From the IMG/VR virus record IMGVR_UViG_3300009440_000045, positions 1 to 21,263 of that record: DNA of 21,263 bases; one strand, written 5' to 3'. Source of the DNA: a virus. The number at the start of each line of letters is the position of its first letter. Position 1 is the first letter of the stretch. Both the position numbers and the translations under genes were made by a program. Below, piece after piece: positions 12,499 through 17,804 of this stretch. The notes beneath the pieces were generated by a model. The model was not told where the DNA came from and did no database searches. It saw nothing but the letters and a program-made list of their open reading frames with translations.

Positions 12499-12895
12499 GG
12501 CAGTATTGACAAGGTTATCAGACAACGGAACGCAAACACTAGGCCGGTTGGTTTTGTACAATAATCTGGATGATGTATTCAATTGCACGACTTTAGAATT
12601 GTCATTTAATGCAAACTTGAAAAATATTAGTTGTATTCCTACAGGAACATACAAGGTCACTCCTAGATATAGTAAAAAATATGACAATCACTATCTTGTT
12701 AATGATGTAATTGGTCGGGATTATATATTGATCCACGTAGCTAACTATTACTATGATTTAAAGGGATGTATTGGAGTGGGTTCTGATTTCTACGACATCA
12801 ATAAAGACGGAGAGCATGATATAACTTCTTCACGGTCAACCCTTAAAAAATTAAAAGAATTAGCACCGGATGGATTTGAGCTTATCATTATATAA
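12485..12895 (+). CDS. DUF5675-like protein, candidate lysis enzyme
   Basis: The protein has 136 residues from the ATG at 12485. A longer frame opening at 12407 would lie entirely over the holin-like gene, so the internal ATG is preferred. The conserved pattern TTLEL, CIPTGTYKV, DYILIHVANYYYDLKGCIGVG and SRSTLKKLKEL is the DUF5675 signature. His84 and Cys95 in the HVAN...GCIGVG segment recall the His/Cys arrangement of YkuD-type L,D-transpeptidases, though the family's enzymatic activity is not established to my knowledge. Placed after a small membrane protein at the end of the late genes, it is the best endolysin candidate here; no classical amidase or lysozyme is visible. Confidence 0.75.
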   Translation: MNNFRAVLTRLSDNGTQTLGRLVLYNNLDDVFNCTTLELSFNANLKNISCIPTGTYKVTPRYSKKYDNHYLVNDVIGRDYILIHVANYYYDLKGCIGVGSDFYDINKDGEHDITSSRSTLKKLKELAPDGFELIII

Positions 12896-12955
12896 TTAAT
12901 ATGTATATATTAAATTAATTTTATATATTTATAATTCACCAAAATAAATATTATT
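12896..12955. other. AT-rich spacer with an imperfect dyad
   Basis: Almost entirely A and T. TAATAT (12897-12902) and ATATTA (12907-12912) form a dyad around GTAT. No promoter of the TTG/TAnnTTTG type is evident. In such composition the dyad may be chance. Confidence 0.3.
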
Positions 12956-13195
12956 ATGACTATAATTAAATCAATAACTTTGGCTTATGATTTAATCTGG
13001 GAAAAATCAAAAGATCATTTTGGATTATACAAAAATGTAAAATTTAGAATAATTAAACGACACTGTAAAGATTGTAAAATGTTAACAGTAAACGATGATG
13101 ATACTCAATTATATATAAATTATTGCTCTAAGTGTGGTAAGGATGATATTGATACAACCAATTTAGTACAAACTTGGAGTTTTAAAAAAAAATAA
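12956..13195 (+). CDS. Small zinc-ribbon-like protein, unknown role
   Basis: The protein has 79 residues. Two CxxC pairs (CKDC at 37-40 and CSKC at 57-60) are separated by 16 residues with a beta-hairpin-like middle, a probable zinc ribbon. The remainder is basic (RIIKRH; C-terminal WSFKKK). It is not recognised further. It is separated by 60 very AT-rich bases from the lysis candidate and is followed by the main non-coding region. It could be a small regulator or a host-factor binder. Confidence 0.65.
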   Translation: MTIIKSITLAYDLIWEKSKDHFGLYKNVKFRIIKRHCKDCKMLTVNDDDTQLYINYCSKCGKDDIDTTNLVQTWSFKKK

Positions 13196-13207
13196 ATCCT
13201 TTTTTTC

Positions 13208-13238
13208 TTGACTGGTGTGTTTAATTTTGTAAATTTAC
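13208..13238 (+). promoter_or_regulatory. Candidate promoter, Bacteroidota type
   Basis: TTGAC begins at 13208 and, 19 bases after the TTG, TAAATTTA (13230-13237) matches TAnnTTTG except for the last base. The spacing suits the Bacteroidota primary sigma factor. Transcription would start near 13242-13246 and read toward the early genes, but would meet two terminator-like hairpins first. Confidence 0.5.
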
Positions 13239-13303
13239 AATGTTAAACGCCAATAAATTTAGTTCTTTGACTTACTAGCCTCCTCCATATTTTTAGATTT
13301 TAA

Positions 13304-13327
13304 ACTCCTTTGTTGGAGTATTTTTTT
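13304..13327 (+). terminator. Intrinsic terminator-like hairpin 1
   Basis: ACTCC (13304-13308) pairs with GGAGT (13315-13319), loop TTTGTT, then one A and seven Ts (13321-13327). The stem is short but has three G-C pairs and a good T tract. It may end late transcription arriving from the tail genes and the zinc-ribbon gene, or terminate a short transcript from the candidate promoter at 13208. Confidence 0.6.
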
Positions 13328-13338
13328 AGTCTAATTTG
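13309..13338 (+). promoter_or_regulatory. Possible second promoter overlapping terminator 1
   Basis: TTTG (13309-13312) is followed 19 bases later by TAATTTG (13332-13338), one base short of the TAnnTTTG box. It would start transcription between the two hairpins. Weak evidence in an AT-rich region. Confidence 0.25.
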
Positions 13339-13363
13339 TCCTATAATATATATTATGTATTTG

Positions 13364-13388
13364 CTAAGTAATTGATACTTAGTTTTTT
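13364..13388 (+). terminator. Intrinsic terminator-like hairpin 2
   Basis: CTAAGTA (13364-13370) and TACTTAG (13376-13382) form a perfect seven-pair stem around ATTGA, followed by six Ts (13383-13388). The stem is AT-rich, so it is weaker per base than hairpin 1 but longer. Two hairpin-plus-T-run elements 60 bases apart in one leader suggest attenuation or tight insulation of early from late transcription. Confidence 0.55.
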
Positions 13389-13446
13389 AAGGTGCATTTG
13401 GGTAATAATTAGCTAAAAAATTCCAATTATTTAAAATGTTTTATAA

Positions 13447-13460
13447 ATTAGTAAACTAAT
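13447..13460. promoter_or_regulatory. Candidate operator palindrome
   Basis: ATTAGT-AA-ACTAAT is a perfect dyad ending four bases before the TTG start at 13464. AATTAGTAAA, which overlaps its left arm, also occurs at 20496-20505 before the portal gene. It could bind a dimeric regulator; AT-rich composition weakens the case. Confidence 0.3.
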
Positions 13461-15224: not shown

Positions 15225-15369
15225 GCGCAATAAATTAATGACAGTAACGAATTACGCTAAACAAATAGGCGTAAGCAAACAGGGTGTGTATAGGAGGGTT
15301 AAGGATAAAACTATTCCGCATAGATACATAGACGGTGTTCCATTTATTAAAGTAAACGAAAATAAATGA
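15214..15369 (+). CDS. Tiny helix-turn-helix protein (excisionase/MerR-like)
   Basis: The protein has 51 residues (43 from the internal ATG at 15238). VTNYAKQIGVSKQGVYRRVK is a textbook helix-turn-helix (residues 11-30), and HRYIDGVPFIKVNENK resembles the short wing of MerR/excisionase-type DNA-binding domains (compare 'I.g..fI.'). It overlaps its neighbours at both ends (11 bases upstream; ATGA with the methyltransferase). It may regulate the early operon or act as a small DNA-bending protein. With no integrase present, an excision role is unlikely. Confidence 0.75.
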   Translation: MKNKRNKLMTVTNYAKQIGVSKQGVYRRVKDKTIPHRYIDGVPFIKVNENK

Positions 15370-16010
15370 AAATACTTAATTTATATTCTTGTCTTGGTGG
15401 AAATCGGTACAAGTGGGATGAAGTAACAGATGTAGAGGTTACAGCTGTTGAATGGGATGAGGAACTCGCAAGACTGTATCAAGAGAGATTCCCAAACGAT
15501 ACGGTAATCGTAGCAGATGCACATCAGTATTTATTAGACCATTACCAAGAGTTTGATTTTATTTGGACATCCCCACCTTGCCCAACGCATAGCAGAGCCA
15601 GGTATTGGGGAATTGGTGCAAATGGGAAAAACCCTGTATACCCAGATATGAATTTATATCAAGAAATAATATTCTTACAAACTCATTTTAAAGGTAAGTT
15701 TGTTGTTGAAAATGTAATCCCATACTATGAGCCATTAATACCATCACAAAAAAGAAATAGACATCTGTATTGGACTAATTTTAACTTACCGAATATTCTT
15801 TCAGATAGGGATGCAAAAATAAGTCAAGGAACAAATGAAGTTAAAAAATTATCTGAATTTCACCAATATGATTTTAAAAAATACAAAGGAAAACAATTAA
15901 CTAATAAAATAGCAAGAAACTTAGTAGACTACCAGGCAGGGAAAACAATTTTACAAACAGCTTTAGGAATAGTAAAACAAGAAAACGTAAATCAATTAAG
16001 TATACTATAA
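15366..16010 (+). CDS. Orphan C5 cytosine-specific DNA methyltransferase (compact)
   Basis: The protein has 214 residues. Motif I is LNLYSCLGGNRYKW (SAM-binding, residues 4-17); motif IV is TSPPCPTHSRAR with the catalytic Cys72; motif VI is VVENV with Glu115; motif VIII is QKRNR (Gln128, Arg130, Arg132). A segment ARNLVDYQAGKTIL near the C-terminus may stand for motifs IX-X. Typical C5 enzymes are over 300 residues with a large target recognition domain between VIII and IX; here only about 45 residues lie there, so specificity may be relaxed or partner-dependent. No restriction enzyme is adjacent, so the likely role is protecting phage DNA or marking it. The stop and next ATG share one base. 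Confidence 0.87.
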   Translation: MKILNLYSCLGGNRYKWDEVTDVEVTAVEWDEELARLYQERFPNDTVIVADAHQYLLDHYQEFDFIWTSPPCPTHSRARYWGIGANGKNPVYPDMNLYQEIIFLQTHFKGKFVVENVIPYYEPLIPSQKRNRHLYWTNFNLPNILSDRDAKISQGTNEVKKLSEFHQYDFKKYKGKQLTNKIARNLVDYQAGKTILQTALGIVKQENVNQLSIL

Positions 16011-16660
16011 TGCAGCGAGATAGTTTCATATTTTACCGATCATTTTTTGAGGCTACAAAGCCATTAAACAAAGAGCAAAAAGCAGACTTATACGATTGTA
16101 TTTGTGGCTATGCTTTAGGCAATGAATTAGAGCCAATAAATGACCCTATTCTGGAGGCAATGTTCTCACTTATAAAACCACAATTAGAGGCTAATTTAAA
16201 ACGCTATAAAAATGGTTTAAAAGGAGCAGAACATGGCAAAAAAGGGGGGAGGCCTAAAACCCCAAAAAAACCCCTAACTAACCCCAAGCTAACCCCTAAT
16301 GTAAATGTAAATGATAATGTTAATGTAAATGATAATGAAAATCTAAATGTAAATAAGAATAAAAAGAATAGTAGGGGAGTCGCATTTGCTCCTCCGACTC
16401 TAAAAGAAATAGAAGATTTATTTAAAACAAAAATAATAAACCCAGAAAAGGCTGCTTTAGAAGCTGAGATATTTTACAATTTCTACGGATCAAAAAATTG
16501 GATGATAGGAAAAAGTAAAATGAAAAGCTACAAAATGGCTGTAGGTGGATGGATTTCAAGAAAAAAACAACAAGAAAATGAAACTAAAAGCACAAGTAAA
16601 GAGCAACGAATTAAGCAATTACAGGACTCATCAGACCGCAACTTTGGAGTTGTCTTATAG
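16010..16660 (+). CDS. DUF6291-like replication protein (initiator/replisome organiser candidate)
   Basis: The protein has 216 residues. N-terminal RDSFIFYRSFFEATKPL, ADLYDCICGYALGNE and LIKPQLEANLKRYKNGLKG (1-75) are the DUF6291 pattern. A low-complexity linker (about 76-125) is rich in Pro, Lys, Asn and Val. The C-terminal part has EAEIFYNFYGSKNWMIGKSK, then MKSYKMAVGGWISRK, a motif shared by phage replisome organisers. The linker DNA holds four 11-bp AACCCC repeats and an AT-rich hexamer tract, so the gene may contain its own origin, as lambda O does. The last 83 bases overlap the next gene. The replication role is inferred from context and layout. Confidence 0.72.
   Translation: MQRDSFIFYRSFFEATKPLNKEQKADLYDCICGYALGNELEPINDPILEAMFSLIKPQLEANLKRYKNGLKGAEHGKKGGRPKTPKKPLTNPKLTPNVNVNDNVNVNDNENLNVNKNKKNSRGVAFAPPTLKEIEDLFKTKIINPEKAALEAEIFYNFYGSKNWMIGKSKMKSYKMAVGGWISRKKQQENETKSTSKEQRIKQLQDSSDRNFGVVL
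16258..16301. repeat. Four tandem 11-bp AACCCC repeats, candidate iterons
   Basis: AACCCC starts at 16258, 16269, 16280 and 16291, exactly 11 bases apart, with following bases close to WARCT. Eleven is not a multiple of three, so the repeat falls in shifting codon phases and is not a by-product of a repeated peptide. This is iteron-like spacing of one helical turn. Protein binding is inferred. Confidence 0.65.
16298..16372. repeat. AT-rich hexamer tract (ATGTAA/ATGATA-like)
   Basis: About twelve imperfect six-base units such as AATGTA and AATGAT encode the Asn/Val linker. The tract directly follows the AACCCC repeats and is easily melted, so it could be the DNA-unwinding part of an origin. 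The period of six is in frame, so a purely coding, slippage-generated repeat is also possible. Confidence 0.5.
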
Positions 16661-17333
16661 TAAAGAGCCTAAGGTAAGAGATTTAGCTAAGAGCAAACCG
16701 GAACTAATTATACAAACCATAAACTATCTCTATGTATTGTTATCAGTAAAGGAAGATAATAGACTTAACGAAATAGAAGAGAGTGTTTTAAATGGATTAA
16801 TACTTACATCCTTTAAAAACTACTCATTAAATGAGATAAAACACGCTTTTAGACTAGCATTAAAAGGGGATATAGATGTAAAACTGTACTCAAAGCTAGA
16901 TGCCATTACATTAAGCGCAGTAATGAAGCAGTACAAAAAGCACAAAGAAAAGACGTTAAAAGAAGAATTGAACAGGACTAAAACACCTATCGCTTTAAAT
17001 GAGGACCAAAAGAAAGCCATAGAGAGCGAATTTATAGATTTATGTGTAAGTACATACCTAATAGAAAGAAAGTCTATTAAATCGCCTAATATAAGCAATG
17101 AATTATATCAGGTTTACAAATATTTCTGGAAACTAGGAAAGATAAACCTAACAAATGAAGAGGTAGAAATGTACAAAGAACTAGCACTAGGGTACTGGAA
17201 GCAGGAATTAAAAGAAATGAGATTAAAAGGATCTAAGCTTAAATTAAATACTCCGATGCCTACCTCAAGGCAAAAAGTAATAGCTGCCTGTTTAGTGCTG
17301 TATGACAAAATAACCCCAGCACAGAAGTACTGA
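16578..17333 (+). CDS. Hypothetical replication-associated protein
   Basis: The protein has 251 residues from the ATG at 16578; a GTG at 16545 would extend it further into the upstream gene. Even so it overlaps that gene by 83 bases in another frame. Largely helical: LIIQTINYLYVLLSVKEDNR, EIKHAFRLALKGDIDVKLYS, LDAITLSAVMKQYKKHKEK. The motif 'F+LALKGdi...y..lDa..l...m..Y' resembles a protein that often follows the initiator in Bacteroidota phages and prophages, perhaps a helicase loader or replication accessory, but no Walker motif is present. The C-terminal region (TSRQKVIAACLVLYDKITPA) is conserved-looking. Function unproven. Confidence 0.65.
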   Translation: MKLKAQVKSNELSNYRTHQTATLELSYSKEPKVRDLAKSKPELIIQTINYLYVLLSVKEDNRLNEIEESVLNGLILTSFKNYSLNEIKHAFRLALKGDIDVKLYSKLDAITLSAVMKQYKKHKEKTLKEELNRTKTPIALNEDQKKAIESEFIDLCVSTYLIERKSIKSPNISNELYQVYKYFWKLGKINLTNEEVEMYKELALGYWKQELKEMRLKGSKLKLNTPMPTSRQKVIAACLVLYDKITPAQKY

Positions 17334-17405: not shown

Positions 17406-17804
17406 ATGGCTCAAAATAACCCCTATTATTACAACGAAGAAGGATTACAAACTCACGTTATTAATTTCCTTAAAGAATTTTATCCAAAAGTCAAATATTG
17501 CGCATCATTGGGGGGCATAAGAACAGGCTTAAAACAAGCAAAAAAAGCTAAAAGTACAGGATATGTAAAAGGCTTTCCTGATCTACAAATAACAGAGGCC
17601 AGAGGCGGATACTTTGGGCTATTCATTGAACTTAAATTTGATAAACAGTGCTATATGTCTGGATACCAAAAAGATTGGATAAAGGACTTAGAAAAAAGAG
17701 GCTACCAAGCAGTTTGCTGTAAAGGTTACGAGCAGACAATAGAAACCATAAATAAATACTTACAACAACATGAAACTAAGCAAATTATTAAAAGAGATTG
17801 TTAA
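17406..17804 (+). CDS. VRR-NUC family nuclease
   Basis: The protein has 132 residues. Family core: N-terminal helix EEGLQTHVINFLKEFYP, then ASLGGIRTGLKQAKKAKSTG, GFPDLQI with Asp59, GGYFGLFIELK with Glu75 and Lys77 (the PD-(D/E)xK catalytic set), Gln88 in the helix YQKDWIKDLEKRGYQAVCCK, and a final helix ending INKYL. Stand-alone VRR-NUC proteins in phages are thought to cut branched or structured DNA, which would help resolve replication intermediates before packaging. It overlaps the following gene by 35 bases. No missing catalytic residue is seen. Confidence 0.92.
   Translation: MAQNNPYYYNEEGLQTHVINFLKEFYPKVKYCASLGGIRTGLKQAKKAKSTGYVKGFPDLQITEARGGYFGLFIELKFDKQCYMSGYQKDWIKDLEKRGYQAVCCKGYEQTIETINKYLQQHETKQIIKRDC

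Follow-up and report, generated by a model that had tools for sequence, protein, structure and literature searches.

The replication origin of phage lambda occupies the middle of the initiator gene and consists of iterons followed by an AT-rich tract, with four iterons in lambda itself and six in Stx phages (PMC7466680). The lambda iterons are comparatively large, at about 18-19 bp. In SPP1, oriL lies in gene 38 and combines direct repeats with an AT-rich melting element inside the initiator gene, and the phage encodes its own loader together with a DnaB-type helicase (gp38/gp39/gp40; PMC6316719). The Bacillus subtilis oriC, with its DnaA-trios and DnaD Recognition Element, carries a periodic low-stability element beside the duplex-bound initiator, which is read in single-stranded form by DnaD (PMC10201434). 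Here, we investigated a 21,263-base IMG/VR virus record (the window), whose products include HNH, VRR-NUC, and methylase-like proteins, and in which an iteron array and an adjoining hexamer tract (Table 1) very probably constitute a phage theta-type origin embedded in its own initiator gene; protein binding, melting, helicase loading, and the start of replication are inferred.

Table 1. Coordinates of the array, the tract, and the surrounding coding features in the window.
Feature	Position	Strand	Basis or remark
Putative initiator gene, 216 aa, DUF6291 (PF19808), phrog_15768	16010..16660	+	Profile match; model pLDDT 82
N-terminal helical domain, residues 1-74	16010..16231	+	No confident PDB fold match
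Basic glycine-rich tail, residues 69-83, GLKGAEHGKKGGRPK, "long GGRP" class	16214..16258	+	Tail class compared with iteron class
Iteron 1, CTAAAACCCCA	16254..16264	+	Direct sequence reading
Iteron 2, AAAAAACCCCT	16265..16275	+	Direct sequence reading
Iteron 3, AACTAACCCCA	16276..16286	+	Direct sequence reading
Iteron 4, AGCTAACCCCT	16287..16297	+	Adjoins tract; grid locked to tract start, n=124 relatives
nnTGnn hexamer-phased tract (AATGTA/AATGAT/AATGTT), encodes NVNVNDNVNVNDNENLNV	16298..16351	+	Alignment, codon use, stability
C-terminal helical domain, residues 131-211	16400..16642	+	Common to proteins annotated as phage replication initiators
Next gene, 262 aa, phrog_26016, function unknown	16545..17333	+	Helicase/loader genes hold this position in relatives

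The motif AACCCC recurs at 16258, 16269, 16280, and 16291, at a spacing of exactly 11 bp, and the 11-bp units tile 16254-16297 without gaps; the very next base starts a run of AATGTA/AATGAT hexamers. The array, which Tandem Repeats Finder (TRF) can also read as period 22, is the sole four-fold exact 6-mer series with a period of 7-30 in the window, and no such series arose in 20 first-order Markov simulations. As the 11-bp period is not divisible by 3, the copies fall in different codon positions, and successive copies encode TP, KP, NP, and TP. When the codons were redrawn synonymously, keeping the protein and the window's own codon usage, four AACCCC copies appeared in only 4 of 200,000 draws, and a four-fold out-of-phase series appeared in none of 20,000 synonymous draws of the array gene.

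The conservation of this repeat was examined in relatives. Since the patterns of a first search had included the Asn-Val tract, a second search was restricted to the N-terminal domain (A1), and it returned 80 bacterial or metagenome-assembled genome (MAG) loci and 80 viral loci. Among 152 non-redundant linkers, the self-similarity of the linker DNA, measured against a synonymous null, peaked at lags 11, 22, and 33 (combined Z of 25.3, 23.0, and 12.5, respectively), with 58% of the linkers exceeding a Z of 2 at lag 11; control segments at this lag gave a Z of 2.6 (N-terminal) and -1.3 (C-terminal). Of 534 intervals between iteron cores, 333 measured 11 bp, where about 25 would be expected, and the spacing is kept although the linker peptides, and even the iteron letters, vary. 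Pairs in inverted orientation, such as AACCATAGGTT, also occur and follow a 22-bp grid. The repeats are thus conserved as DNA, at 11 bp. A first-pass annotation had reported four 11-bp AACCCC repeats within a replication gene and had proposed that the DNA repeat itself is selected; the repeats held with their positions exact, and selection is upheld by the synonymous nulls and by the lag-11 and lag-22 excess in the 152 relatives. Conserved spacing despite differing linkers, which it had offered as a check, was found, and the absence of the repeats from close relatives, which it had said would refute the idea, did not occur.

The relatives bear host labels from Bacteroidota, Clostridia, Bacilli, and others, of which the MAG labels are possibly wrong, and they include isolates of Prevotella, Capnocytophaga, Riemerella, Chryseobacterium, and Clostridium viride. 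The same layout is present in phages NrS-2 (host Nitratiruptor, Campylobacterota) and GRNRAP2. The same site, in four interchangeable repeat spellings, recurs in phages and prophages across many bacterial groups. For Porphyromonas and Vibrio proteins in which the C-terminal domain alone is shared, no 11-bp array was visible.

Immediately after the last iteron comes a conserved tract of low stability in which TG recurs at 6-bp steps. In the window, seven consecutive hexamers run to 16339 and one further hexamer lies at 16346. When 124 sequences were aligned at the first hexamer, T followed by G recurred with a 6-bp period, in at least about 90% of the sequences over the first five hexamers, while C peaked at -2, -13, -24, -35, -46, and -57 from the tract start. 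Compared with its closest relative (L002), the window has identical iterons and a tract that differs by a few substitutions and a 12-bp insertion, equal to two hexamers. When 60-bp stretches of the 21-kb window are ranked from the least stable upward, the tract comes third; the two that precede it start near 12887 and 13402 and are largely non-coding. The region containing them, 12887-13460, is very AT-rich and comprises the least stable DNA of the window, and no iterons were seen in it. We propose the tract as the site of melting and helicase loading, which is an inference made without melting data.

Codon use in the tract is constrained as well. Asparagine is written AAT in 891 of 909 tract codons (98%) versus 997 of 1503 (66%) elsewhere in the same genes, and among Asn codons that precede a G, AAT accounts for 837 of 849 in the tract versus 339 of 491 elsewhere (Fisher p 1e-58). 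Gene by gene, the proportion of AAT before G was higher in the tract in 82 genes and lower in 1, and the AAT contrast also holds in genes with higher third-position GC. Where Asn is replaced in the tract by H, P, T, D, Y, or S, the replacement mostly keeps a codon of the form nnT followed by G. A search with a 30-mer of the tract for occurrences outside its reading frame yielded no non-coding copy; all 25 matches were in frame, in DUF6291-like genes.

These data bear on a first rival explanation, in which the repeats arose only as a by-product of selection for flexibility in a low-complexity protein linker (Pro/Lys-rich, then Asn-Val-Asn-Asp). In its favor, the segment is coding and predicted to be disordered, with the confidence of the structure model being low from about residue 75 onward, and several linkers contain 33-bp, hence 11-residue, duplications. 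Against it, (i) the period is out of codon phase, (ii) the excess survives protein-preserving shuffles, and (iii) codons are fixed even where residues change. We consider the by-product explanation very unlikely, and in its linker-only form it is rejected by the synonymous nulls. The puzzling Asn-Val-Asn-Asp linker is instead explained as a signal carried in the DNA, not as a feature of the protein.

The iteron cores among relatives are spelled AACCCC, AACC, AAGC, or CAACC, and the spelling corresponds to the type of basic tail in the protein, the 15-25 residues encoded just upstream, after the N-terminal domain. A long GGRP tail accompanies AACCCC in 35 of 37 cases, a short GGRP tail AACC in 43 of 44, a tail without GGRP AAGC in 28 of 31, and a GGAPKGN tail CAACC in 8 of 9; all three proteins with a long insert plus GGAPKGN have iterons combining CAACC and CCCC. 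Moreover, near-identical genes have swapped tail and repeats together. Loci L195 and L199 are 98% identical in the N-terminal and 89% in the C-terminal domain, with AACC and AAGC iterons, respectively, and loci L189 and L199 are 92% and 94% identical in the same domains, with AACCCC and AAGC. The pairing and the exchanges suggest that the iterons are read by the encoded protein, with residues 69-83 of the window protein as the proposed determinant of specificity; both are inferences from sequence alone, with no binding data. Because the tail and the iterons adjoin, linkage could explain part of the pairing. Furthermore, a tree-based test of independent pairs counted only 1-3 supported switches, since the N-terminal tree is poorly resolved, and its sign test was not significant.

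In a second rival explanation, the iterons are recognized not by the encoded protein but by a host protein such as DnaA, on which many plasmid and phage origins depend. However, the window contains no DnaA-box-like TTWTNCACA, with the caveat that the contig is possibly incomplete, and the iteron spelling varies with the tail of the phage protein itself, which makes a host reader very improbable. With the phage protein as the reader, a bolder, joint claim can be formulated, namely that (i) the disordered basic tail of 15-25 residues recognizes the origin through a modular code, (ii) tail and iterons form a mobile specificity cassette, and (iii) the nnTGnn tract is a new strand-specific loading element in phages of Bacteroidota, Bacillota, and Campylobacterota. 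In such a code, an extra GAxxG insert would specify CCCC rather than CC, GGAPKGN in place of GGRP would specify CAACC, and the absence of GGRP would specify AAGC. This claim, taken as a whole, is possible but slightly more likely to prove wrong than right.

The assignment of the gene as an initiator is likely, and its function is inferred from context. The window protein matches DUF6291 (Pfam) with 75.3 bits (cut-off 27.2, E 4e-21). The C-terminal halves of relatives match DnaB_2 (DnaD), Phg_2220_C, and PHROG families named DnaD-like loader or replication initiator, with the DnaD domain DnaB_2 (Pfam) found in 14 of 87 relatives. The downstream neighbors in relatives encode DnaB-like helicases, primase/helicases, DnaC-like loaders, and G39P-like loaders, and in phage NrS-2 the gene occupies an early position near the repressor. 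The window protein itself has no Pfam DnaB_2 match, and for its C-terminal domain a search with the family profile gave only a weak DnaD-like match, to 2zc2 (E 0.74). A PDB sequence search gave a best E of 0.01, to low-complexity sequence, and fold searches with the N-terminal domain, alone and within the full model, gave no Foldseek match with E below 4, with VIA Z under 4; this missing match says nothing on function. Membership of the lambda O family by descent was considered and rejected, as the window protein matched no O-type profile but only DUF6291 and unnamed PHROGs; phrog_678, "replication initiation O-like," was matched by 4 of 87 relatives. Upstream, a short C5-methylase-like gene (214 aa) occupies 15366-16010, and its stop codon overlaps the start codon of the putative initiator gene.

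In the proposed mechanism, the DUF6291 domain and tail would bind the iterons cooperatively; as 11 bp is approximately one helical turn, the sites of binding would be aligned along one face of the helix. The bound initiator would then cause the tract to melt, and the C-terminal domain and/or the product of the next gene would bring a DnaB-type helicase to the exposed strand. Differing tail and iteron types may keep co-resident phages off each other's origins. A third rival explanation is that the array is an operator, through which DUF6291 or another phage protein regulates transcription of the replication operon, with the origin lying elsewhere. Iteron-binding initiators are often autoregulators, and the AT-rich, largely non-coding DNA near 12887-13460 could hold another origin. 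However, the array starts some 250 bp into the gene and is locked to the low-stability tract, the array-tract pair is kept across many phages and prophages, and no iterons were seen in the AT-rich region, so we regard the operator as unlikely and retain the embedded origin. GC skew was uninformative on this point: the window showed no sign change at 16.3 kb, the complete phage NrS-2 has a skew minimum at 17,587, 1.4 kb from its tract, which coincides with a switch in gene direction, and the complete phage GRNRAP2 has no comparable minimum. Of the remaining proposals of the first-pass annotation, a probable initiator gene is supported by DnaB_2 in relatives and by the helicase and loader neighbors; an easily melted tract after the repeats is upheld by its stability rank; a GC-skew change at 16.3 kb was sought and not found; and an origin resembling that of the lambda O gene is supported, with origin firing and protein binding only inferred.

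The specificity of period 11 was assessed in IMG/VR, where the period-11 and period-12 scans are samples. At period 11, 25 of 80 loci with AACCCC triplets fell in DUF6291 genes, compared with none of 30 at period 10 and 4 of 120 at period 12, and the hexamer tract was present in 23 of the 25 period-11 DUF6291 loci. The remaining arrays of period 11 are either intergenic or located in other genes, some of which are different initiator-like genes. It is possible that 11-bp iterons are a wider phage design; the tract, by contrast, accompanies DUF6291. Six loci (L288, L296, L298, L305, L327, and L348) have period-11 AACCCC arrays, without the hexamer tract, inside unrelated initiator-like phage genes, some of which resemble DUF1376/YdaU by eye. 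In six others (L306, L312, L317, L325, L335, and L339), 11-bp arrays of the AAACCCCGCCC type are situated close to the 3' end of RepA-type AAA helicase-like genes, and apparently non-coding 11-bp AACCCC arrays occur in other phage contigs (L276, L277, L290, L294, L295, and L341). The sole plasmid match, NZ_OY725926.1 (L537; Bacteroides finegoldii), was not used as evidence of autonomous replication; it carries ffh, rho, tilS, and folD along with a prophage with DUF6291 and dnaB and is probably a mislabelled chromosomal piece.

Our analyses suggest a likely function, that of replication initiator, for a large family of unknown function, and they would make it possible to find the origins of many uncultured phages and prophages by sequence alone. 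The match between tail class and iteron spelling represents a directly testable recognition code, for which the natural exchanges supply ready pairs, and the codon-constrained hexamer tract provides a new case for the opening of phage origins. In the open-access literature searched (subscription papers were outside its scope), we found no description of the DUF6291 version, the hexamer tract, or the tail-iteron pairing.

Compared with the known systems, the locus resembles the lambda origin in gene O in placing iterons and then an AT-rich tract midway through the initiator gene, but it differs in its 11-bp iterons, its hexamer-phased TG tract, and its unrelated N-terminal domain without a known fold match. 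With SPP1, it shares direct repeats and a low-stability element in the initiator gene, and G39P-like loaders adjoin some DUF6291 genes, whereas the initiator family and the repeat layout are different; SPP1 also has a second origin, oriR, and a second array in the window was sought only by the AACCCC scan. The periodic low-stability element, as well as the DnaD domains in some DUF6291 relatives, recalls the unwinding region of the B. subtilis oriC, but the period of the tract is 6 rather than 3, and, by eye, the AATGTA run contains no TnnT on either strand and no run of DnaA-trios. Embedded iteron origins are already known from lambda O and SPP1 gene 38, and what distinguishes the probable origin described here is its initiator family, the size of its iterons, and its tract.
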